Shown here one piece after another: positions 24,910-56,244 of a stretch of 64,000 bases of DNA. This DNA comes from Chitinispirillales bacterium (GTDB taxonomy: Bacteria; Fibrobacterota; Chitinivibrionia; Chitinivibrionales; Chitinispirillaceae). Location of the stretch: the NCBI GenBank assembly GCA_031254105.1, contig JAIRVB010000046.1, forward strand, positions 1 to 64,000. Direction: 5' to 3'. The translations under genes were made by a program, and so were the position numbers. The notes under the pieces were generated by a model. The model was not told where the DNA came from. It made no database searches and saw only the letters and a program-made list of their open reading frames with translations. Within the stretch, counting starts at the first letter, position 1, and each line of letters begins with the position of its first letter.

Positions 24910-24942
24910 CGCGCACGCCTGAATCCCCGTTGCGGGGCGGCT

Positions 24943-24996
24943 GAGGGGTATGAGAGGTATTATGGGGGGTATATTCTGTCACAAATAGAGTGAAAG
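24943..24996 (+). repeat. 54-bp direct repeat, left copy (3' fragment of gene X)
   Basis: Identical at 51 of 54 positions to 26710-26763. It encodes GYERYYGGYILSQIE and a stop, nearly the same C-terminus as the ORF ending at 26760, so it is the surviving 3' end of a second copy of that gene. A small CCCCG/CGGGG hairpin lies at 24925-24937 just before it. Confidence 0.85.
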
Positions 24997-25197
24997 TGGT
25001 AAGTATATATGGAAAATCGTTACCTCCTTTCCAAAAATATCTTTTTCTCTTCCCCTTACTTCTCAAAATCCCCATTTTATATATTGTATGTCTCAATTTT
25101 ATATCAGCGAAACGAACGGTCATATTTTACAGATGGAAAAGGTGTTCTATGCTGAAAGTAGAACATATCGAATTAGCGTTAGGGGCAATAAAGCGTA

Positions 25198-26286
25198 ATG
25201 AGTAAAGGCATCAAAAAGGCAGATATGAATTTACCGGATAAACAGGCCGAAAGCCTGCTCTATAGTGATGTATGTTCCCTTATAGAAAATACACGTCAAC
25301 GATTGGCGGCAACGGCGAATGCGGAAGCGTGTATAATGCACTGGCAGATTGGTAAACGTATCAAAGAGGATGTTTTATACAATAAAAGAGCTGAATACGG
25401 AAAACAAGTCGTTAAAAATCTTGCAAAAAAATTAACCGGAAAATATGGCGGCGGCTGGAGCGACAGAAAACTCTTACATTGTATACGCGCCGCGTATACT
25501 TTCTCAGAAGATCAAATTGTATACGCAGCGCGTACACAATTGACATGGACGCATCTCCGTTCCATAATGTTTATAGAAGATGAATTGAAACGGTCGTTCT
25601 ATATGGAAATGTGCCGGTTGGAACATTGGGATACACGCACCTTGAATGAAAAAATAGACTCCCAACTTTATGAATTAACAGCATTGAGCAAAAAGCCGGA
25701 AGAAGTTATTAAACAGGAGCTCGCAAAAATAAAAGATACTAATGCGCTTATACCCGATATTGTTTTTCGCAGTGACTATTTTCTGGACATGCTCGGATTG
25801 ACCGATGTATATAGCGAAAAAGATTTGGAAGACGCCATTTTAATTCAAATTCAGTCATTTATAAAAGAATTGGGTTCTGATTTCGCCTTTTTAGACAGGC
25901 AAAAACGAATTACGGTTGATGCTGTAGATTACTTTATAGACTTATTATTCTATCACAGAAGGCTGCGCCGTTTAGTGGTCATTGACTTGAAATTAGGTAA
26001 ATTTAAGCCTGAATACGAAGGCCAGATGCTGCTGTATTTAAGGTATTTAAATAAAAACGAACGGATGGAAGGCGAAGAATCGCCCATAGGTTTAATTCTT
26101 TGCTCGGAAGGCAATACCGAACACATTGAATACCTGATGCTTGATGATAATAATATCAGAGTAGCGCAGTACTATACGCAACTACCCGATAAAAAGTTAT
26201 TAAGCGAAAAATTACAACGCGCTATTGCGATAGCAAAAGAACATCATGCAAATGCGGCTGGAAAAAGAAGTTTGTTCAAAAGTTAA
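25198..26286 (+). CDS. DUF1016 / YhcG-family PDDEXK nuclease
   Basis: A 362-residue protein with the two-part DUF1016 layout. The N-terminal helical/winged-helix half runs from YSDVCSLIENTRQRLAATANAE through WQIGKRIKED to GGGWSDRKLLHCIRAAYTF and LTWTHLRSIM. The C-terminal PD-(D/E)xK nuclease half has DAILIQIQSFIKELGSDFAFLDRQKRITV, YFIDLLFYHRRLRRLVVIDLKLGKFKPEYEGQM. The Asp and the DLK triad are in place, so it is probably active. Family members occur in defence islands and next to type I restriction systems. A tiny 18-codon ORF ending MLKVEHIELALGAIKRNE overlaps its start by 8 bases; no strong SD. Its 3' end is duplicated at 27343. Confidence 0.9.
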   Translation: MSKGIKKADMNLPDKQAESLLYSDVCSLIENTRQRLAATANAEACIMHWQIGKRIKEDVLYNKRAEYGKQVVKNLAKKLTGKYGGGWSDRKLLHCIRAAYTFSEDQIVYAARTQLTWTHLRSIMFIEDELKRSFYMEMCRLEHWDTRTLNEKIDSQLYELTALSKKPEEVIKQELAKIKDTNALIPDIVFRSDYFLDMLGLTDVYSEKDLEDAILIQIQSFIKELGSDFAFLDRQKRITVDAVDYFIDLLFYHRRLRRLVVIDLKLGKFKPEYEGQMLLYLRYLNKNERMEGEESPIGLILCSEGNTEHIEYLMLDDNNIRVAQYYTQLPDKKLLSEKLQRAIAIAKEHHANAAGKRSLFKS

Positions 26287-26330
26287 GGCCAATGGACAAA
26301 TCGACGTACCCGCCAGATAGATTCATAGTT

Positions 26331-26760
26331 TGCGGCGGCTCACGAATACCGAAAGCTTCTGCAGAACACGTTAGAGTTATGCGCGTCAACGGTGTACGCT
26401 CTTACGGCGCTTGAGTCAATGTATTCACATCCCGATTCCGCAGACCAAAATATCACGGTTACGCAAGCCAAGCAGAATAAGATTGAAGCGGAGCTTAACA
26501 AGCTCTCTCAGACGTATGTTGATACACGCGAATTAGCCGCGTATATCGCCACAGAACGGACGCAGATACGTTTGCAAACGGTCAAAACGGCGCAGTATCA
26601 GTCTAGTGTTGAAATTAATTACGCAAATCTGCTAAGTCACGATAAAGAGATATGGGATGGGCAGGCGCTGAATTATGAGCATTCGATCCAGGTGTTGTTT
26701 GCGGGAGCGGAGGGGTATGAGAGGTATTATGGGGGGTATCTTCTGTCAAAAAGAGAGTGA
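26331..26760 (+). pseudogene. Gene X: 5'-truncated unknown protein
   Basis: An open frame without a credible start runs from just after a stop at 26328-26330 to TGA 26760. It translates as a helical, Gln/Glu-rich segment (KLLQNTLELCASTVYALTALES, VTQAKQNKIEAELNKL) ending GYERYYGGYLLSKRE. A GTG at 26392 is the first in-frame start but has no SD. Base composition is close to the host average, unlike the AT-rich genes that follow. The 5' part seems lost at the junction with the DUF1016 gene. Not recognised. Confidence 0.55.
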
Positions 26761-26763
26761 AAG
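26710..26763 (+). repeat. 54-bp direct repeat, right copy
   Basis: Partner of 24943-24996 (51/54 identity); here it forms the intact 3' end of gene X. The two copies bracket 1.7 kb holding the DUF1016 gene. Confidence 0.85.
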
Positions 26764-27020
26764 AGATAGACATTATATAGCCGAAAAGTAAATTCTTGTT
26801 CCTTAATAATGTAGACTTGTTCTTATAGTGCTCAAATTTATTTTAGTTCTTCTTGCTTTTCAAAAACTCCATATTGCATATTATGAATATGAATTACGCA
26901 CTGGGCTTATTGCATAAGGCAATAAGAATATCCGTATAAGTCAACGTTAATTATGAGCTTGAACTCGTTAGCAAAGAGTTACTCAAAAGGCCGGTCTCTT
27001 CACAAAGAAATTGATAGTTT

Positions 27021-27350
27021 ATGAATGGAATGTTATCTGTAAAAGAATTTAATAAGGTTTTAGAAGAATTAACTGATAATAATCTTAATAAAAAATTCTT
27101 TGGGAACAATGTAACAGGCGTTGATATTGTTTTTGTTGCAGGATTGATGTTATGGTATGAGAAGTTTGAAGATAGTTTTAAGCGTCTTGAGATAACATAC
27201 CTACTAAATGATAATAAGAAAAGTTTTGAAATTAGCCAGTATTTTGAGCAATATTAAAATTTGTACAGAACAAAATGGAGTGATGTGTTTGAAAAATTTA
27301 GCTATGTAACCGATAAATCTACAACTAATACAGGATTATTTGCCCGATAA
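27021..27350 (+). pseudogene. Small AT-rich gene with in-frame stop, fused to DUF1016 debris
   Basis: The frame gives a 78-residue peptide (MNGMLSVKEFNKVLEEL ... ISQYFEQY), then TAA at 27255-27257, then continues in the same frame for 30 codons (NLYRTKWSDVFEKFSYVTDK) to a second stop inside the DUF1016 fragment. This suggests a gene broken by a nonsense mutation and truncated by recombination. No SD. No family recognised. The 78-residue form may still be made. Confidence 0.45.
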
Positions 27351-27440
27351 AAAGTTATTAAGCTAAAAGTTACAACGCGCCGTTGCGATAGCAAAAGAAC
27401 ATCATGCAAATGAAACATTGGAAAAAATAAAGTTCGTTTA
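27343..27440 (+). pseudogene. 3' fragment of a second DUF1016 gene
   Basis: 27343-27412 matches the 3' end of the intact DUF1016 gene (26185-26254) at 66 of 70 positions and resemblance continues to about 27440. One difference turns a GAA codon into TAA. It lies immediately upstream of the large NTPase gene and shows that a DUF1016 paralogue once stood here. Confidence 0.85.
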
Positions 27441-27463
27441 AAATATTATGAGGGGGTCAAAAA

Positions 27464-30400
27464 ATGGATGTAGAATCTTTTCTGTCTGAAGATGAACAGA
27501 AACAATTTAATAGTACTTGGTTCCCACGTAAAATACAAGATGAAGTTTCGAATAAACAAATAGTGATTGGTGAGGCTTCAAATAACTTTTCCCCTTTTTA
27601 TGATCTATATGAGGAACTCATACTAAAAACCAAAGGCTCTTTTTATGGAGTATGGATAAATGCCGAAATAGGAGATGGGATTTCATGGCTTTCAGAAAAA
27701 ATACTAAATGCTTTTAATAATAAAACATATAATAGAGTTGCTCCACCCAAATTATACTTGCTTAAAAAAAATACAGAAATCGTTTCCAAAAAACTACCTG
27801 ATATATCTTTGCTTATTGGAGAAAAACAATTCAATAAATGTGCTGAAAAAAGTGGATTAATGGAAAAATCGTTATGGTTGTTTCTCTCTGTAGTATGTGC
27901 AATTATACCAGCTATAGGTACGATTGTATCTATACTTTTAGGAGTGCTTAATATAAGCGCAATTACTCTAAAGTTGCCAGTATTATGTGTACTTAGTTTA
28001 CTATCTGTTTTAGGTATTTTAGGAATAGTATTTCGTTCATCGAAAAGTAAAACAGAGGAGAGGAGAGAGAAATTTTTAAATATCATTCACAAAAAAGAAA
28101 CGAGTAAAGATGGGAGTTATAAAACATTAATAAAATATCTTGTAGAAAAAATATCTGATTTACATCCATCAAGGATTCTTATAATAGATGAATTTTCCGC
28201 TTTAGATAAGTTGTCGCAAAACGTTTTACAAGTATATTACGAATCTAAAAGCGAATATCAACAAGACAAGGAATTATGGATAATTATCAATACTAATTTT
28301 ACATGTTCAGAACAAAGTAAGTTATGGAAAAATCAAAATAAAACATTTCCCAAATTTAAGTATGCTAAATTATTAGTATTGAATTCGACAGAGAAGAAAA
28401 AACTGGTCAAGGCTCTAGACCTTTTACATGAAAATACAAAATACGAGATTATAAAAGATGTGTGTAGTAATTCATTGTCCCCCGATTCTTTTGCGGATAT
28501 GCAAGAAAAACTAAAAAAATTGCAAAATGATAACAATACTGCATTCCGTTTTCTTTACCTTATTGCTTCTAATGCAATTCCGGCAGATATGATTTGCAGA
28601 CGCAGAGCATTAATTGATAAAATTAAATATACAAATGAACAAAAAGAGCGAGATAAGTACATTTATAAAATTTTGGAAAGAGAAACTATACCAAATTCGG
28701 ACGAGTTAGTGGGCTACTTCAAACCGATTAAAAATTTTTTATTTTATGTTGATAGTAATGAGAAGATGTTCAGGGTAAGGAGCCACGTTGTTCAATGCAT
28801 AGGGGATAAGGAGAATCATACAGGATTACAGGCGGATTTATACCGTTATTGCAATGGGTATTGGGCAATGTGTTGGTATTTTGTTTTTAACCGTAGGCAA
28901 TGGAACATAACCTGGACTCCCAAATTAGCGCACCACTTAAAAGCGGCCTCTTGTCTCGGTGATGATGACCTGCGTAAGCACATATTTGATGCACATTTGT
29001 TTGCCATAGAAAAAAGCATAAAATTTTTTTTGAAAAAAGAGGCAATTGATTTAATCGAAAATATTTTCGAACTGGATATTCAAGAATATGACAACTCCGA
29101 AGAACTACTTAAGCCGTTGGTAAAACTGATTATATCTGCTTATTTGAATTTTAGCTATTTACCAGATAGTAAAAAACTAAAAGCAATTGGGTATGAACAA
29201 TTTTTTAATTTCTTAAAAAAAGATGATGCAAGACTTACACTTGCAAATGAACTATTATACAAAAATATTTTCGATGAGATTATTTTTGTTATTATAGAAC
29301 ATTTGTGGGAGAAAATATTATTCTTGGATATTTCTAGGTCTTATAATATGAAATATACTATTGAAGAAAAGAAAGAACTGCAAGCACTTATAGATAATTA
29401 CTTTAAAACAAATATTTTGCAAAATGATGATAATATCGGTCAAAAAAGCCAAAATATTGCACTTTGGATTTGGATAAATGCTCTTGATATTTCTACCAAC
29501 AATGAATTGGAGATGCCCATATATAACAAAATAATTGGCAAAATTGAAAATGCAATAGATTTATTTGTGGCATATAGTGAAAGATATAAAAATTGTCGAG
29601 ATGATGTTGAGCAGACAATGTTTTACACAACAATGCGAGAGTGTGCATGTATTATTATTGCTTCTATATTAACGATAGAACATACAAAAAATTTGGTACA
29701 TAAAAAGTTAAGAGAATATAAGCAAAAAATTATTGGATTGTATGACTTAAATATCAATAAGAATAACAATATAAAAAATTTTGACGAAGTATTGGATTTA
29801 ATGCAGATACAATCAATACTGTGGTTGCATGGTAAATATATTACTCGTAGCTATAACCTAATTATAATTAGAATCCAGTTTTATTATTCATATAAACGGA
29901 AAAACTACACAATTGAGGATGAACAAAAATATAATTTTAAAGATGAATTGGGGAATATAGCTACAAACCATCATTTGAACACTATTGCAAATTTTACTCT
30001 ATGCAACTTATATTCTAACTATAACGATGTAATAAGTGACTATTATTTTCAGAACGCTTTAAACTTTTTGGAAAATACTGAATTTACAAAAATACAATTG
30101 GAATATATGTTTATATGTATAGTTTTGAAGTTTCACTGTTATAACCCTACTTTAGAAAAAGTGATGTCTTGTTTTGTTAGTTTGGGTGAACCACATACAG
30201 ATGATATTTTGTATTATGTGGTACAACAAATTTCAAAAAACTATACACATATAATAAACACACTACGCGAGTTTAAAAACGAAAATGCGATGCTGTTTTT
30301 TTCAAATATTTTAAAACAACTAAAATACCAGAACGATGCGGCGGTTAAGAAGACACTGAAAAAAACGAACCAAGCGAAATCAACCATTAAAAAAAATATT

Positions 30401-31291
30401 GAAGAAGCAGAATCGTTATGGCGTAATTTTGAATTTCAGAAAATGAATAAAAACGATAAACTTGCAAATAGAAAAGAATATGAAGATTTTTGGAAAGATA
30501 AAGAAAAACTATTTCCTTACTCGAGTGCATTAACAAATCTTTTAAATTTGGAAGAACCATCAGAAGAACTTAAAGATAAAGCGTTTATTTTCTTAACACA
30601 AGAAAAATGTTATTATTATAGTGGATATCTATATTTGGCTTGTACCTATCTTAACTACTCTGTGAATAATCAGAACAATAAGTATTATGAAATTTTGGAA
30701 ACTGTCAGGAGACTAGAAACAGAACGATATTTTTCAAGCAACTTGCAATTAATGAAGGAACTATACAGTACTTTGCATCGTTGCACACAAGAACAAAAGT
30801 ACGATGACACACTAATTGAGATAAACTTAAAGCTGTCTCAAAATGAGCTTGACAATCATGGAAATATTTCAGCATTTGATTTTTTATGTAGTTTATGCAA
30901 TACATGGTTAAGATGGAATATACATAATGTAGGTTGCTCACAACAGCCTATAGGTGAAATAATCGATAGAAAAACTATTTTAAACAAATATGAACATGCA
31001 CCTGATGTTATCGTTAAAAAACAAACCAATGATGGTATCAGGGAGATGATAAATGGCGAATTTCTGTTTGTAAATGAGTTAATAAAATTTTTACAATCTT
31101 ACGATGATAAAATCCGGACTGAATATCAGGATATTATAAATAAATGTGACGAAAAAGCCGAAGAAAGTCTGCATGCTATAGTCAATATGATTATTAAAGA
31201 AAATCCAAAATATACAGAGCAAATAGAACGACTTTACGCACAGTGGGATGAAGATACCATCTTCGGTGAAGAAGAGGAAGAGTTGGTATGA
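27464..31291 (+). CDS. Large KAP-like membrane P-loop NTPase with helical C-terminal region
   Basis: A 1275-residue, strongly AT-rich gene with RBS GAGGGGG. Residues about 35-80 resemble a P-loop strand-loop-helix, but the Walker A is degenerate (NAEIGDGISW, no Lys before Ser/Thr). Two hydrophobic helices (about 137-161 and 170-191) follow. The Walker B RILIIDEFSALD is at 237-248, then IIINTNF. A membrane hairpin inserted between Walker A and B is the layout of KAP NTPases (Kidins220, PifA), some of which exclude phages. Residues about 400-1275 are almost wholly helical with TPR/solenoid-like character and end in an acidic tail. The missing Lys could mean weak or no ATP hydrolysis. A defence role is inferred from layout, size and island context; another STAND-like family remains possible. 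Confidence 0.65.
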   Translation: MDVESFLSEDEQKQFNSTWFPRKIQDEVSNKQIVIGEASNNFSPFYDLYEELILKTKGSFYGVWINAEIGDGISWLSEKILNAFNNKTYNRVAPPKLYLLKKNTEIVSKKLPDISLLIGEKQFNKCAEKSGLMEKSLWLFLSVVCAIIPAIGTIVSILLGVLNISAITLKLPVLCVLSLLSVLGILGIVFRSSKSKTEERREKFLNIIHKKETSKDGSYKTLIKYLVEKISDLHPSRILIIDEFSALDKLSQNVLQVYYESKSEYQQDKELWIIINTNFTCSEQSKLWKNQNKTFPKFKYAKLLVLNSTEKKKLVKALDLLHENTKYEIIKDVCSNSLSPDSFADMQEKLKKLQNDNNTAFRFLYLIASNAIPADMICRRRALIDKIKYTNEQKERDKYIYKILERETIPNSDELVGYFKPIKNFLFYVDSNEKMFRVRSHVVQCIGDKENHTGLQADLYRYCNGYWAMCWYFVFNRRQWNITWTPKLAHHLKAASCLGDDDLRKHIFDAHLFAIEKSIKFFLKKEAIDLIENIFELDIQEYDNSEELLKPLVKLIISAYLNFSYLPDSKKLKAIGYEQFFNFLKKDDARLTLANELLYKNIFDEIIFVIIEHLWEKILFLDISRSYNMKYTIEEKKELQALIDNYFKTNILQNDDNIGQKSQNIALWIWINALDISTNNELEMPIYNKIIGKIENAIDLFVAYSERYKNCRDDVEQTMFYTTMRECACIIIASILTIEHTKNLVHKKLREYKQKIIGLYDLNINKNNNIKNFDEVLDLMQIQSILWLHGKYITRSYNLIIIRIQFYYSYKRKNYTIEDEQKYNFKDELGNIATNHHLNTIANFTLCNLYSNYNDVISDYYFQNALNFLENTEFTKIQLEYMFICIVLKFHCYNPTLEKVMSCFVSLGEPHTDDILYYVVQQISKNYTHIINTLREFKNENAMLFFSNILKQLKYQNDAAVKKTLKKTNQAKSTIKKNIEEAESLWRNFEFQKMNKNDKLANRKEYEDFWKDKEKLFPYSSALTNLLNLEEPSEELKDKAFIFLTQEKCYYYSGYLYLACTYLNYSVNNQNNKYYEILETVRRLETERYFSSNLQLMKELYSTLHRCTQEQKYDDTLIEINLKLSQNELDNHGNISAFDFLCSLCNTWLRWNIHNVGCSQQPIGEIIDRKTILNKYEHAPDVIVKKQTNDGIREMINGEFLFVNELIKFLQSYDDKIRTEYQDIINKCDEKAEESLHAIVNMIIKENPKYTEQIERLYAQWDEDTIFGEEEEELV

Positions 31292-32001
31292 AATTAGAGT
31301 TTCCCCCAAATGTACCTTTTGTTATCTGTACCATGATATGTAAATATTTAGTAGTGTCCGATAAATTTACCAAATAATACAGGGAGCCGCAACACTTATA
31401 TTATTGTTAGTCATTAGCAGATGATTTAACAATAAGTCAAAGTGAGGAGGTAGTGTCAATATAATTGAACAAATTCTTTTTTCCCGTTTGGCTCCCAGTT
31501 CTACAAACTCGAGGAGACTGATAAAAGGGCCTACCCCTTCCTCACCTCACACCTCTTCTTACAAAACATAATCCCATACTTAACAATATCGTTATAGCAC
31601 TCTTTTTCTAACTCTCTTACGTATATACCTTCATCTATTTACCGTAGCGCGTCTTCGCTCTCGTTACAAATTTCGCGCATCTCTTTTGTCCATTTAAGTT
31701 CAAACCGGCCGGATGGAAAGGCAAAATTTACTATTGACAGCGAGGTTAAGCTGATTGAAACTTTTCGCAGCATATGTGTCCGGTTCAAAAAAGCCATCAG
31801 AAAAACGCAAACAAGAGATCATAGCCGAGATCCGCAAAATCGGCAACGAATTAGCAACACTGTAATCCTGCGGTAATTTTTGGTGGCTGCGAAGAAGCAT
31901 ACGGCTGCGCAGGAGAGGAATAGCTGTTAAATTCGCTGTTCTTGGGGTTTAAACGCAAATTTGCATTCCTGAAAATTAATGTCACCGAATAATTATAGAG
32001 A
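31292..32001. other. Island edge: no intact gene, decayed remnants
   Basis: An inverted repeat TTATTGTTA/TAACAATAA (31401-31409 with 31427-31435, inner TCAT/ATGA) could end the NTPase transcript or mark a junction. From 31755 to 31865 a plus-strand frame reads LKLFAAYVSGSKKPSEKRKQ and ends EIRKIGNELATL-stop, protein-like, while the adjoining upstream part is readable only in another frame. This looks like the 3' end of a frameshifted gene; its family is not recognised. Confidence 0.4.
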
Positions 32002-49684: not shown

Positions 49685-50830
49685 TTAAGTGTTTAACCTG
49701 TTTGTAACTATCTCATTTACATACCTTTGCGGCACTTTTTCCTGTTCTAACCGCCAATTGTTTTCTTTCAATTGTTTGTACAGCAGCTGTTCTTCTTTTG
49801 TCAAATTCAAAGCGGCAGTGATTTTTGAGTCTGTTCCTTTGTCATGTTCGAAATATCTTTCAAATGTTTCCGTATTCATTAAAAAACTTTTAGTGTGCGG
49901 GAAATAACTTCTAAATTGCGATAATATTTCAAATCCCTGCACATCCAAATCTCCCCAATAAAACAACTCTACTTCTCTAAGCCATTGAGTATTTTTGAGA
50001 TTTTCGACTCCGAAACCACTGCCAAATATCACAATAGTTTTTTCTATAACAGGAAAAGTAAGAACATTCATTTTGTTTTCTACTACAAAAACTTTTCTTA
50101 TGGGCAAATTTAATTTTTCAAATTGACTTACCGGAATACTCAAATCATCTATTCCCGAAAAATATTTTTGACTTACATTTTTGTCCAAAATTCTGAAATG
50201 CGCCAAAGGCCCGGCATATTTCAAGTTAAAACGTTTTTCAAAATCTTTCTCATCTTTATTGACATATTCTTGAATTAAAATATCCAATAGTTCTTTAAGA
50301 ATCGTTTTATTTTTTTCTATAAATTTTGTGTGAACTTGTATTGGCAATTCACGAATGTATAAACCTGGGTTAGGGTTAGAGTTGAAATAATTACAAACTT
50401 TTAAAATATCGTCCCATTTGTCTTGATTTTCAATTGCTTTTTGAGGATATTTTGCGAGCCAGTCTTTTAATTCCGGAAATTCAGAAAGAATTAACGCGCA
50501 ATTCTCGCGAAATCTTTCTACTTCTTTCTCTTTGCGCAAGTATTTCAGATAGTCTGCTTCGGATTGAAAACTGATTTGTGTCGGAATATCCTGTGTGCCG
50601 AGATTTTTCTTTTTAATTGTCTGATATTTTATTGCGTACCCGTAACCCTTCTTTTCTTTTGAATTGTTGGTTAATTCTGTAAGCTCACGTTGAAATATTG
50701 AGAAGTTTTCATTCGGTTTTTTACTTCCTTCAATAACAATTTCAATAAAAGGGTAACCTTCAACAACGGATTGCAAATAAGAGAAATACCTTTTCTCCGC
50801 TTTGATTTTTATTTCATTCGGAGTAATCAT
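49685..50830 (-). CDS. jetD: Wadjet protein JetD (DUF2220, TOPRIM nuclease)
   Basis: A 381-residue protein of the DUF2220 family. The C-terminal TOPRIM part has VFVVENKMNVLTFPV, IFGSGFGVENL and the metal-binding ELFYWGDLDVQGFEILSQF, followed by the winged-helix-like end. In Wadjet JetD cleaves the DNA loop extruded by JetABC. The ATG overlaps the jetC stop (ATGA) and has no SD. Last gene of the operon. Confidence 0.93.
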   Translation of the reverse strand: MITPNEIKIKAEKRYFSYLQSVVEGYPFIEIVIEGSKKPNENFSIFQRELTELTNNSKEKKGYGYAIKYQTIKKKNLGTQDIPTQISFQSEADYLKYLRKEKEVERFRENCALILSEFPELKDWLAKYPQKAIENQDKWDDILKVCNYFNSNPNPGLYIRELPIQVHTKFIEKNKTILKELLDILIQEYVNKDEKDFEKRFNLKYAGPLAHFRILDKNVSQKYFSGIDDLSIPVSQFEKLNLPIRKVFVVENKMNVLTFPVIEKTIVIFGSGFGVENLKNTQWLREVELFYWGDLDVQGFEILSQFRSYFPHTKSFLMNTETFERYFEHDKGTDSKITAALNLTKEEQLLYKQLKENNWRLEQEKVPQRYVNEIVTNRLNT

Positions 50831-53800
50831 TGATTAATAAATTTTTCGCGTTCTTCTTTAAACTGATTGATTGGCATATCGTAAAGCCGCGATTCAGCCC
50901 CTTTCCTTTCAACATAATGCACAAATGAAATATCATTTTCCACAATGTGTATATTGTCGCTTGGCGTAACGACTAAAAGTTGTAAATGCAGCTGTTTGCA
51001 TAACGAAATCAGGTAACGGGCTTTATCCTCGTCCTGCGCCTTAAATGCTTCATCAATAGCGATAAAACGGAATGAATCGGATTGCAAACCATCTTTTGTT
51101 AACCCAAATTGATAGGCTATCGCCGAACCTAAAATAGTGTAAGTCAGCTGCGCTTTCTCCCCTCCCGAAAGTTGTCCCATACTTTCGTATGTTTTATACT
51201 TTTGATTAGTTTCTTTGTAAAACTCTTCCGCTTTGTAAGTAAACCAAGCCCTGACTTCCATTACTTTTTTGCGCCACGGTTCGTTTTTTAATTTTTCAAT
51301 AAGCGGCTGAATATGATTGTTGAAATGGTTTTTCCTGCCGTCAATTGCGGCGTCTATTTCCCGCATATTGGGTAAGGCTTTTTCTAATAAGTTACGAAAC
51401 TCTTTTACTTCGTCGTTTATTTTTTTAGGATTGTCAAGTTGAATATATGTTGTCGGACTGATGTTAAAGTTGATTTCTTTTAAAGATTTATTTAAGGTTC
51501 TGACAGTCTCGCTGATTGAGTTTGCCCAATTTTCAAAAAACATTCTAAAATCGCTTACTTTATTTGTAACTGTCTCACGCAAATAATCATTAAATCTCTT
51601 CTCAAAACGAACTAAATCTTCTTCTATCAATTTTTTATAAAACGATTGATATTCACCGATTAACTCAAGATTTTTCGCATCCGGCAGATTGTGAACATCG
51701 GAACGCCAATCTCTGAACTTTTGCGAAATCTCTTCGGAAGGATTTTTGAATTGAACGATTAATTGGGCTGCTTCCCGTTCTTTTTTATTTTTCAGTTCAT
51801 TTTTTTTGTCTATTTTTGTTTTATTATTGTCTTGAAATTCATATTGTTTCATTTGTATATTTTCAAAAAAAACATTTAATAAATCAGGGTTTTCTTGTTC
51901 AAATTCCGCAGTTTCTAATTTGCCAAGTTGTTTAAGCAAGCCGTTGTTTTCTGAATAAATCTTGGCGGCGGTTTTTAGTTCAACTTCCTCAATTTGGAAA
52001 ATTTCTTTGTCCTTGTTTTTTATTGTAATGTCTGTTAAAGTTTTTAAATTGTCTTGAACCTGTTTTAATTGCTCTTGAAGTTTCTGCACTTTATTGTTTG
52101 TTTTTTCTAAATCATTTTTCTGTTCTGTTTTTTCTTGAATTGTTTTTGCGTAAGATTGCCAATCTATATCATCGTATTTAGAGTGAAGTTTGAACAAATC
52201 GGAAAAATTTTCTTTAAAATTTTCTGAATCCTTGATAGATTTTTCAATGTCCCTGATTTTTTGCGCATTTTGTTTTTGCTCTTCTTGCAATTCACGAACT
52301 ATTTTGCGTATTGATTCGATTTTTTCTTTGTTGTCCCAACCGAGAACATAATTTTCTTTGCGCAAGACGTGAGGCCGGTCATCTTTTTCGTGTTTGCCTT
52401 TTACAGATTTTATTAACCCTTCTTTTGTTACGGCTCGTTCTTCGTAACGGTTAAATTCCTGTAAATCAGTCACACAAGCATAATTATAATTGTTAAAAAT
52501 TACATTTTCCAACCAATCTGTGTAAACATTTTTGGGTTTAAATTCAATCTTGTTCAGCAAACTGTTTTGCGTAATGTCTCTACGAGTCATCTCTTTAAGC
52601 GAAGTGAATGTTTGGTACCGCTGATAAACAATTCTGCCATTAAGGTTGCGGGAGTTAACAAATTGGTTAACTTGTGCGTAATATTTTTCAGGAACAATCA
52701 ATCTCAAAGCAAAATTGTGTAAAATTTTTTCAATGGACTGTTCCCAGTCCTTCTCATTGTCTTCCACCCGCATCAACTCGCCGATAAATGGAATCTCTTC
52801 GGCGGCCGCGCCAATGGCAGTTAAAATTTCGGTTCTTATTCCGGCTTCCCGTCCCGAAATATTGTTTTTGTTTTTTTGCAGCGACTGAATGATTTCAATG
52901 TTTGTCTCAATTTCTGATTGAAGTTTATCTTTTTCATTTTTCGCTAAACGAAGTTCTTCCGCTTTATCTTCAAGTATTTTGTTTAGTTCCGCTTTCCTCT
53001 TGTTTGCCTTTTCTCTGTTTTCTATAAAAACACTTTCGCTTGGGTTTTCGGAAAATTCTACTTTTTGAGCGATTTTATTGTAATCGTCTAATTTTTGTTT
53101 CCGGGTATCTCTACTTCTTACAAGCGAATTTATTTCTTTTTCCAAATCTTTGATTTTGCTGCCAACCGCGTCTGTTTCAATAGCGATAGAAAGCTGCCGC
53201 TCTTCGCCTTTTAACACACTTTCTTTATCTTTTAACCCTCGCAATTCATCTTTCAGATTTTCTAAATACGCGTTATATTTCTCAAGTTCTTTTTCCGCAA
53301 GTTCTACATTCTTTTTTGCAAACCAATACACCGCCGCTTCTTTTGATTCTTGCAATTTATTCAGCTTCTCTTGAATATCAGCAAGTTCATCCGCAATTAT
53401 ATCTATCTGCCGCAGCTGCGTAATCTGCTCTTTTGTTTTGTCAATGTTTATTTTTGCGTCCATTAAGGTAGAAAAGCTCTCATTCAATTGAATGTATTCA
53501 CTTTCAGCATCACGGTCTTCGAGCATATTGGTACGAATAAATTCGTCCAAATCGTCTAAAACTTTTACACCGACAATCTGATTGAAAAGTGTTAATCCCT
53601 TTTCTGAACGCATGCCAAACGAGGTATAAGTTCTATCTCTGTAATCTTTTATTTTATCATAAAATTCTATTTGCTTTTTAGGAACATTTGTATTGTACTT
53701 TTTGTCTAATTTTTTCTTCCAATCGCCTTTACTGCCATTAAAATCAGAAAAATCTTTTTGTATTCCAAGCGGTTTATATGAAAATCCAAAAGTACATTTG

Positions 53801-54237
53801 AGTTCGCCGTTAGCAAACCATCGAAGTTGAAAGAGCGTAATAATTCTCTGGTCTGTATTGGTAAATGAAGCCAAAATTACCGAGTATGTATTTTTATCTC
53901 TTAATCTTTGTGTTGTAGTACTTGTATCACCATCCCGTTGAATATTGCCGTAATTTCCAAGCACATAAGTTTCTTCCGTGCGGTCGCCTTTTTTTTCTGA
54001 TCCCGATGATTGATTGTAAAACCGATCCTTTTTTGCGGGCACAAGCAGCGTAAGCAAAGCATCAATAAAAGTACTTTTTCCTGAAGCGTTTGCTCCTGTT
54101 AAAAGCGAATTGTTACCTTGCGGGTTAATCCGGCACACGCGGCCGTCAAATGTTCCCCAATTATATATTTCCATATAATTCAGGCGAAACCCCGCAGTAT
54201 CCGAACTTGTGCTAAATAAACTATATTGATTCGACAT
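50827..54237 (-). CDS. jetC: Wadjet protein JetC (SMC/MukB-like ATPase)
   Basis: A 1136-residue SMC-type ATPase. Residue 48-55 is Walker A GANASGKS; two long coiled-coil arms around a hinge-like middle (about 480-620) follow; the C-terminal head has signature LSGGEKAQLTY and Walker B FRFIAIDEAFKAQDED. In the JetABC complex it extrudes DNA loops and senses small circles. Start ATG 54237 chosen for GGGA upstream and fit; the frame is open to 54276. Overlaps jetB by 17 bases. Confidence 0.94.
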   Translation of the reverse strand: MSNQYSLFSTSSDTAGFRLNYMEIYNWGTFDGRVCRINPQGNNSLLTGANASGKSTFIDALLTLLVPAKKDRFYNQSSGSEKKGDRTEETYVLGNYGNIQRDGDTSTTTQRLRDKNTYSVILASFTNTDQRIITLFQLRWFANGELKCTFGFSYKPLGIQKDFSDFNGSKGDWKKKLDKKYNTNVPKKQIEFYDKIKDYRDRTYTSFGMRSEKGLTLFNQIVGVKVLDDLDEFIRTNMLEDRDAESEYIQLNESFSTLMDAKINIDKTKEQITQLRQIDIIADELADIQEKLNKLQESKEAAVYWFAKKNVELAEKELEKYNAYLENLKDELRGLKDKESVLKGEERQLSIAIETDAVGSKIKDLEKEINSLVRSRDTRKQKLDDYNKIAQKVEFSENPSESVFIENREKANKRKAELNKILEDKAEELRLAKNEKDKLQSEIETNIEIIQSLQKNKNNISGREAGIRTEILTAIGAAAEEIPFIGELMRVEDNEKDWEQSIEKILHNFALRLIVPEKYYAQVNQFVNSRNLNGRIVYQRYQTFTSLKEMTRRDITQNSLLNKIEFKPKNVYTDWLENVIFNNYNYACVTDLQEFNRYEERAVTKEGLIKSVKGKHEKDDRPHVLRKENYVLGWDNKEKIESIRKIVRELQEEQKQNAQKIRDIEKSIKDSENFKENFSDLFKLHSKYDDIDWQSYAKTIQEKTEQKNDLEKTNNKVQKLQEQLKQVQDNLKTLTDITIKNKDKEIFQIEEVELKTAAKIYSENNGLLKQLGKLETAEFEQENPDLLNVFFENIQMKQYEFQDNNKTKIDKKNELKNKKEREAAQLIVQFKNPSEEISQKFRDWRSDVHNLPDAKNLELIGEYQSFYKKLIEEDLVRFEKRFNDYLRETVTNKVSDFRMFFENWANSISETVRTLNKSLKEINFNISPTTYIQLDNPKKINDEVKEFRNLLEKALPNMREIDAAIDGRKNHFNNHIQPLIEKLKNEPWRKKVMEVRAWFTYKAEEFYKETNQKYKTYESMGQLSGGEKAQLTYTILGSAIAYQFGLTKDGLQSDSFRFIAIDEAFKAQDEDKARYLISLCKQLHLQLLVVTPSDNIHIVENDISFVHYVERKGAESRLYDMPINQFKEEREKFINQ

Positions 54238-54793
54238 ATTCCCGTAATTTATTTCTGAACTCTTGCAAATCGTCAAGTGTGATCCTTTCTTTTATAATTC
54301 TGTGAACTTGATACCGTATTTCACTTTCTTTTCTTTCAATTTCTTTCAAAAATCCTAATTCTTCGGCTTTGTTAATATAACTGTCCAACTCTTTCATAAA
54401 TTTTATTTTGTTGTATTTTTCAGACAAGAATAATTCTACTTCTTCTTTTATCTCATTATTTGTAATAAATTTTTCAAACGTTTGTGTTTCAGTCGGATTA
54501 CTGTCAAATTCCTCTAAAATTTGTCGTAAAACAACTAAAATAATAGATGTTTCAAAACCAATTTGCCGTCTTGATACTAAATTCAGCGTTGTGCCGTCTT
54601 CCAACTCAACTTGTTTCACAAACGCAAAACCTTCATCCTTTTTCACTATCAATTCCAAACCTATTACAGAAATATAATCCTGAATCTCAGTTTGATATGT
54701 GATAATATCACTCCAGGCATTCGCGTTGCGTTCAACCGTTCCTTTTAACAATCGAACTACCGCTTTTGAGTATGGTTGTATGTTGTTATTCAT
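54221..54793 (-). CDS. jetB: Wadjet protein JetB (DUF4194, MukE-like)
   Basis: A 190-residue winged-helix kite-type subunit: VVRLLKGTVERNANAWSDI, YISVIGLELIVKKDEGFAFVKQ, RRQIGFETSIILVVLRQILEEF and the C-terminal RITLDDLQEFRNKLREYV. Bridges the JetC heads with JetA. ATG overlaps the jetA stop by 4 bases; no SD. Confidence 0.92.
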   Translation of the reverse strand: MNNNIQPYSKAVVRLLKGTVERNANAWSDIITYQTEIQDYISVIGLELIVKKDEGFAFVKQVELEDGTTLNLVSRRQIGFETSIILVVLRQILEEFDSNPTETQTFEKFITNNEIKEEVELFLSEKYNKIKFMKELDSYINKAEELGFLKEIERKESEIRYQVHRIIKERITLDDLQEFRNKLREYVESI

Positions 54794-56244
54794 TTTGTTA
54801 AAATTATTTCCGGAATTTGTATTACTTTTCTTTTTTCTTTATCAAATAAAACAGTTTGTGTTTTCTCTGTATTCACGGCATATTTAAAGTCTTTTACAAC
54901 ACTTATATAACCGAATAATTCCGGCAACCCTTTTGAAATTCCACCTTGATTATTAACAATATCTAAAATAGTGGCTTGTGATGTTTCTTTCAAAACATTT
55001 TTTATCCGTTTACGAAGTTCATTTTTATCAATTGTCGAAGAGTTGAAAACTTTACTCAAGTTTATAAAATCATCAATACTTGCTGTTGCTGCTTCCGGTC
55101 TGCTTTTATAATCAACCTCTTCCGATTGTTCAAAAGTCAATTTGCGCTCAAATGAGATATTAATATCAAGGTTGGTTTCGAGAGCAAATGAAATATCCGG
55201 TTTCTTTTTGCTTTTGTTTGTCTCAATAAGCAAGTTTTTAATTTCTTGAATAATATTTTTTGTAACTTCTGTTTTTGAAACTTCATTTTCACGAATAATA
55301 CGGCTCAATTTTTCAGCCATTTTGCCGTTAGTACGATACACTTTTTTTCCCGAATCATACAAATGCTGTTTCATGTTTTTCAGAAAAGAATCGCTTGTGT
55401 TAATTTGCTTACCTTCGAGTGCTTGATACAATTCCTCAACCAAACCTTCCCACTCTTTCTGTAAATCGAGAGAACGTAAAAATTCCCAAAAAGCATAAAA
55501 ACTTTTTCCCTGCGAACTTTCTTTCAATTCGTCCAAAGCGTCAAAAGTATATTGTAAAATATGACTTTTTTTAAGTGAGATATCAGTTTGTTTTTGATAA
55601 ATTTCTCTAATGATAACTTTGAAATTATTATCTACTTCCTTAAAATCAGAAAGTAATTCTTTGGCTAATTTGTTTAGTTGATTAAATCGCGGCACAATCT
55701 CGTATTCTTCAAACACCTTCACATCCTCGCCCATCCTTAAACGCTCAATTTGCCGCTCAATTTCAGATTTTTTATCTTCAAGTAAGTGCAGGCGTTTTTC
55801 TCTGTTTTCGTTGGTAAATTCAACCAATTCTTTCAATTGACTGAAAAGTGTTTTGAACTTAGATTCTGTGCCTATATATTCTTCTTTTTTCAAATTCAAC
55901 AGCCAATCAAGCGTTTTACTTGAATGAGAGGAAAGTTCGTAAAATATTTCACCTGTTTCGTTTTGATAATTAGTTAGAAAACCCTTGTTTGCCCATTGTT
56001 GAATATATTTTTTTGCTTTAATCTCATATGTGTCTGAAGGTGAAATTTCATTTTCTTCATCGGCTTCAATACCTTGCCGTTCCAAAAAGTCAGTCAATTT
56101 ATTGTGGATATTCTCAGAAGACACAACTGATTGCCGGATAAATATTTCAGCAAAAAACAGAATAATAAAATCCCTGTTTTTTGTTTTCAACAACGAAACA
56201 CTCGGCGAATTGCTTAATATGTCTATTAGTTTCGAGTTATCCAT
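54790..56244 (-). CDS. jetA: Wadjet protein JetA (DUF3375, MukF-like kleisin)
   Basis: A 484-residue DUF3375 protein: N-terminal winged helix (SNSPSVSLLKTKNRDFIILFFAEIF), central helical region (EYIGTESKFKTLFSQLKELVE), C-terminal wHTH (TILDIVNNQGGISKGLPELFGYISVV). DUF3375 marks type I Wadjet. First gene of the operon; the leader is AT-rich (CATTAAAT before ATG) without SD. Confidence 0.93.
   Translation of the reverse strand: MDNSKLIDILSNSPSVSLLKTKNRDFIILFFAEIFIRQSVVSSENIHNKLTDFLERQGIEADEENEISPSDTYEIKAKKYIQQWANKGFLTNYQNETGEIFYELSSHSSKTLDWLLNLKKEEYIGTESKFKTLFSQLKELVEFTNENREKRLHLLEDKKSEIERQIERLRMGEDVKVFEEYEIVPRFNQLNKLAKELLSDFKEVDNNFKVIIREIYQKQTDISLKKSHILQYTFDALDELKESSQGKSFYAFWEFLRSLDLQKEWEGLVEELYQALEGKQINTSDSFLKNMKQHLYDSGKKVYRTNGKMAEKLSRIIRENEVSKTEVTKNIIQEIKNLLIETNKSKKKPDISFALETNLDINISFERKLTFEQSEEVDYKSRPEAATASIDDFINLSKVFNSSTIDKNELRKRIKNVLKETSQATILDIVNNQGGISKGLPELFGYISVVKDFKYAVNTEKTQTVLFDKEKRKVIQIPEIILTK

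Follow-up and report, generated by a model that had tools for sequence, protein, structure and literature searches.

What kind of protein is encoded by a long, AT-rich gene whose outline recalls known defence NTPases? The question is raised by a gene of 1275 codons in the window, by which we mean the whole 64,000-nucleotide stretch of Chitinispirillales DNA that was analyzed. A sequence-only reading had described its product as KAP-like, with a degenerate P-loop, a membrane hairpin, a clean Walker B motif and a helical tail, and had suggested an undescribed membrane-linked defence ATPase encoded beside a DUF1016 nuclease. The features that bear on this proposal are collected in Table 1.

Table 1. 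Features of the 1275-aa orphan gene and its surroundings, in positions of the window.
Feature	Position	Strand	Basis
1275-aa orphan membrane P-loop-like protein gene	27464..31291	+	open frame; RBS; codon-position GC
Degenerate Walker A without Lys, AEIGDGIS at residues 67-74, with Ile73 (ATT) in the Lys position	27662..27685	+	rank 1/1236 vs 27 KAP P-loops, shuffle P 4e-4
Membrane hairpin of two helices, residues 130-194, separating the Walker motifs	27851..28045	+	Kyte-Doolittle; AF2 long helices
Walker B ILIIDE, residues 238-243	28175..28192	+	AF2 strand 237-241
Putative sensor-1-like strand LWIIIN, residues 271-276	28274..28291	+	strand 270-276 in both low-confidence AF2 models
C-terminal tail, residues 400-1275, for the most part predicted as helix	28661..31288	+	no family match above noise
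DUF1016/YhcG PD-(D/E)XK nuclease gene	25198..26286	+	PF17761 E 3e-37; PF06250 E 6e-46; PADLOC PDC-S02 E 1.7e-116
Second DUF1016 gene, 3'-end remnant	27259..27417	+	ends 46 bp before 1275-aa gene start
Complete type I Wadjet JetABCD operon	49685-56244	-	second low-GC island, 18 kb from 1275-aa gene
JetA	54790-56244	-	E 2.9e-200
JetB	54221-54793	-	
JetC	50827-54276	-	
JetD	49685-50830	-	

The reading frame begins with ATG and continues for 1275 codons with no stop or frameshift, and a purine-rich ribosome-binding site (AGGGGG, 27451-27456) lies 7 nt upstream. GC content at the three codon positions (0.375/0.255/0.257) follows a coding-like pattern. Its GC3 of 0.257 compares with about 0.46-0.50 in housekeeping neighbors, and local GC around the gene is 0.275-0.31, which bears out the description of an AT-rich ORF of this length. 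The relatives that were compared share the rpsB-tsf-pyrH-frr block. The sequence that follows frr here occurs in none of those relatives, so the insertion site is variable. The gene is of foreign composition and was probably imported by horizontal acquisition.

The proposed lysine-less P-loop-like motif is present in the sequence, and GK[ST] is absent from the entire protein. It would take two base changes to turn the Ile73 codon into one for Lys, and a single miscall is therefore no explanation. In a comparison with 27 KAP proteins of the same phylum at their P-loop windows, residues 47-86 scored best of all 1236 windows, and 4 of 10,000 shuffles of this window scored equally high, but the Lys and Trp of the KAP-type context ([GA]xWGxGK[ST]) are absent. 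With the GxGK core masked, the flanks alone dropped to between 5th and 14th rank, and we therefore grade the P-loop signal as moderate. The claim of a clean Walker B also held; ILIIDE is the sole [ILVMFYA]4-DE motif within the protein. Because 15% of shuffles contain a motif of the form hhhhDE, we place weight on the order of the motifs rather than on Walker B; a loose P-loop string turns up in 1.1% of shuffles.

Between the two motifs lies the only strongly hydrophobic stretch of the protein, where a membrane hairpin had been proposed. Its 19-residue Kyte-Doolittle mean reaches 2.68, and the stretch has room for two helices. Two AF2 runs made without homologues (mean pLDDT 40 and 48) both placed strands at about 62-66, 96-101, 237-241, 270-276 and 300-306, and both predicted long helices at about 120-161 and 166/170-207/212 that correspond to the hairpin. 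In the predictions, a helix flanked by two strands precedes the membrane hairpin, and a helix, the Walker B strand and a further strand come after it. As for the tail of about 850 helical residues, AF2 supports helices, at low confidence, over the part checked, which extends to residue 500.

These results bear on the reading that this is no P-loop protein at all, but a large membrane-anchored helical protein in which P-loop-like and Walker-B-like strings occur by chance. The shuffle frequencies of both strings, the absence of any family match and the weakness of the models all speak for it. We nevertheless regard it as very unlikely: the P-loop window is conspicuous in the comparison with KAP P-loops, the order and spacing of the motifs are right with the hairpin between them, and strands appear at the expected places in both models.

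For the first AF2 model (pLDDT 40), Foldseek ranked 22 AAA+ ATPases ahead of all else, most of them clamp loaders, with E 0.011-0.34, probability ≤0.38 and TM-score ≤0.18. No match reached E 0.001, and matches of the second model were noise. The proposed check by Foldseek gave an AAA+ signal for one poor model that the other did not share. The predicted structures are compatible with a P-loop fold without proving it. An alternative is a membrane-anchored AAA+/STAND-type protein unrelated to KAP, which would act as an NLR-like sensor through a tail of helical repeats and whose core would consist of Walker B and a sensor-1 Asn in a clamp-loader-like arrangement. The orphan's Walker B has DE rather than DD-LDR and LWIIINTN resembles a sensor-1 strand, as this alternative would have it. 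However, the Foldseek signal comes at best at E 0.011 from a single low-confidence model, Pfam gives no AAA, NACHT or STAND match, and a hairpin placed between the Walker motifs is typical of KAP and Tmn. This alternative seems to us distinctly improbable.

The description of the protein as undescribed proved fair, as no relative was found in any set searched. These sets comprised 168 genomes of the phylum, 72,556 plasmids, 50,697 phages, the PDB, and, by pattern scans, IMG/VR and 84,980 species genomes. One scan of the species genomes, forced by a synthetic two-row alignment ([IV]NAE[IW]GDG and IDEFSALD), returned 94 pattern matches, with 0 confirmed. Since pattern scans demand an exact short match, distant homologues outside the phylum could escape them. 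Weak matches within the phylum (E 0.006-0.8) were dismissed as noise, those read being UvrA-like, MCE-like, transporter-like or other unrelated frames. Pfam, NCBIfam, PHROGs and PADLOC gave noise only for the whole protein and for its pieces, and nothing above noise for residues 400-1275. Locally built KAP and YobI/Tmn profiles scored the protein no better than chance, and semi-global profile scoring gave no signal (z 0.4-1.3). No similarity to KAP, YobI or Tmn rose above local shuffles, even with Lys placed at position 73 of the scored copy.

How, then, does the orphan relate to the families that it resembles in outline? Tmn belongs to the KAP-family NTPases, has two unusual transmembrane domains and blocks phages by an unexplored mechanism (PMC11846954). 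PADLOC assigns the name Tmn (PDLC02220) to YobI-ATPase (PF20693) proteins, and its profile is 1273 aa long. The same genome encodes a Tmn of its own on contig C2 (L088:6303-10166; 1287 aa, PDLC02220 E 8.6e-73), which is adjoined by a DUF3990 gene. Further Tmn loci are present in the phylum, where Tmn proteins encoded by a single ORF span 1213-1287 aa. The orphan follows the Tmn architecture, with 1275 aa, the P-loop at 67, the hairpin at 130-194, Walker B at 238 and a long tail. In other genomes, loci L082, L083, L084 and L085 carry a Tmn/YobI split into two adjacent overlapping ORFs, an NTPase of about 475-540 aa and a tail of 870-955 aa. The N-terminal half alone matches the Tmn model in the L082 pair, and the split ORFs suggest a two-gene variant of Tmn.

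Membership in Tmn/YobI by sequence was rejected. The orphan has no match to PDLC02220 in PADLOC (E ≤ 1) or PF20693 in Pfam (E ≤ 10), and a local profile of 12 Tmn proteins from the phylum gave -2.1 bits, on the hairpin. It could still be a true Tmn that has evolved so fast that fold and function are the same and the sequence signal is erased. Near-identical length, the same order of P-loop, hairpin and tail at similar spacing, and the presence of Tmn in this very genome and elsewhere in the phylum would fit such erosion. Against it, the 12-protein profile found just the hairpin, the Tmn model of PADLOC matches neither the entire protein nor any of its pieces, and the orphan lacks both the GK[ST] and the FEDLDR-type Walker B that are retained by Tmn proteins in this phylum. 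On balance we think it unlikely.

The same arrangement is found in KAP proteins of the phylum that match PADLOC PifA/QatA models and carry their hairpin between the two Walker motifs, namely L126 (1029 aa; P-loop 65, TM 139-192), L125 (1084 aa; P-loop 85, TM 173-230) and L122 (1154 aa; P-loop 50, TM 128-200). The orphan shares with this KAP subset the position of its membrane helices. The Tmn and KAP analogues have a canonical Walker A and a Walker B of the form EDLDR or D-N-LDR, whereas the orphan has neither. Membership in KAP by HMM was likewise rejected, with no Pfam match (PF07693) to E 10 and local KAP profiles within the range of shuffles. The order of elements proposed as KAP-like is therefore real, recurring in these three proteins and in YobI/Tmn of the same length, yet the orphan escapes detection by the profiles of KAP, YobI and Tmn alike. 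"KAP-like" is accordingly a statement about architecture, not demonstrated homology.

The neighborhood had been offered as a hint of function. The DUF1016 neighbor is real, but it carries little information because about nine near-complete DUF1016 ORFs, plus fragments, occur in the genome. Moreover, 1.2 kb of gene debris separates the nuclease gene from the 1275-aa ORF, and DUF1016 was found near Tmn at 1 of 13 inspected loci. In one genome of the phylum, an hsdM-DUF1016-hsdS-Tmn array (L080:612-8680) places Tmn inside a type I restriction-modification locus. The complete Wadjet operon 18 kb away, at similarly low GC, is a somewhat better hint of defence than the DUF1016 neighbor. An Rfam scan returned the tRNA only.

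The debris has a structure of its own. The second DUF1016 remnant has 55-56% amino acid identity to DUF1016 residues 301-354 and contains two stops, and its last 70 nt are 94% identical to 26185-26254. Interleaved direct repeats span 24940-27463: a 62-nt element occurs at 24940 and 26707 (90%) and the 70-nt DUF1016 3' end recurs at 26185 and 27343 (94%), as if a unit of element plus DUF1016 had been duplicated and its second copy gutted. Also between the nuclease gene and the large ORF is a 78-aa ORF at 27021-27254 (MNGMLSVKEFNKVLEEL...). Assignment of the ORF at 26392-26760 as an MnmG fragment was unsupported (Pfam E 0.0014, below cut-off); the only other matches to it within the genome are 17 residues at 24934 and a weak match on contig C14. 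Downstream of the 1275-aa gene, about 700 bp (31292-32001) are apparently decayed coding sequence.

Such flanks invite the reading that the gene itself is decaying, that is, a once-active NTPase that recently lost its Walker A Lys and is heading toward a pseudogene. The remnants on both sides (26290-27463 and 31292-32001), including the truncated DUF1016 copy with its stops, are what such a reading would predict of the surroundings. The gene tells otherwise, with 1275 codons free of stops and frameshifts, a good ribosome-binding site, coding-like GC and a Lys codon altered at two bases. We consider ongoing decay of this gene improbable.

The reading that we favor, and to which we give about an even chance, is that of a P-loop pseudo-NTPase, membrane-anchored and very diverged, whose architecture resembles that of Tmn/KAP and whose link to those families is one of layout only. 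It is supported by the motif order, the hairpin, the KAP-like P-loop window, the Tmn/KAP layout within the phylum, the AF2 order of elements and the AAA+ matches in Foldseek, as well as by foreign composition, the variable site, Wadjet and the hsdM-DUF1016-hsdS-Tmn array. It is weakened by the lack of sequence similarity to KAP, YobI or Tmn, the poor AF2 models, the lack of a homologue and the uninformative DUF1016 neighbor.

As a pseudo-NTPase of this kind, the orphan would be a P-loop-fold protein anchored in the inner membrane, in which a short N-terminal region precedes the core. The two-helix hairpin would split the core between the degenerate Walker A and the intact Walker B, and a tail of about 850 residues, helical for the most part, would follow the core. 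Both termini are predicted to be cytoplasmic because a strongly basic segment, FRSSKSKTEERREK, comes after the second helix. Loss of the Walker A Lys should cripple ATP binding and hydrolysis, hence the proposed pseudo-NTPase. The helical tail may sense an infection cue, upon which a core-driven change in oligomer state, with little or no hydrolysis, could act on the membrane and stop the infected cell. A role in defence is plausible as a prediction, modestly helped by the nearby Wadjet and the variable low-GC site. More tentatively, and on the doubtful side, the orphan might represent an unrecorded family of membrane-anchored P-loop pseudo-NTPases, either convergent with Tmn/KAP or diverged from them past recognition, that provide phage defence without ATP hydrolysis.

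Among known systems, the DUF1016/YhcG nucleases (PDC-S02) adjoin the orphan gene but are abundant genome-wide, with no sign of a functional link. KAP proteins (PF07693; PifA/QatA-like) resemble the orphan in the register of the P-loop (FYGVWINAEIGDGISWL versus FSFAIDGKWGCGKSWI of a soluble KAP) and in having a hairpin about 60-90 residues past the P-loop, then Walker B and a helical C-terminus. They differ in that the orphan P-loop is Lys-less, no LDR follows its Walker B, and its tail is longer than most. Tmn shares with the orphan its length (1273-aa profile versus 1275 aa), an N-terminal P-loop, the hairpin between Walker A and Walker B, a long tail, and the setting of a single gene in low-GC, variable surroundings. 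In contrast, the orphan is without detectable sequence similarity to Tmn, has AEIGDGIS without GK[ST] where the Tmn of its own genome has AKYGAGKS, and has a Walker B of IIDEFSALD as opposed to IFEDLDR. Annotation of defence genes by profiles can overlook a 1275-aa protein whose architecture is recognizable by eye. A Lys-less protein of Tmn layout would also ask directly whether hydrolysis is needed, or whether the hairpin and helical tail are enough.
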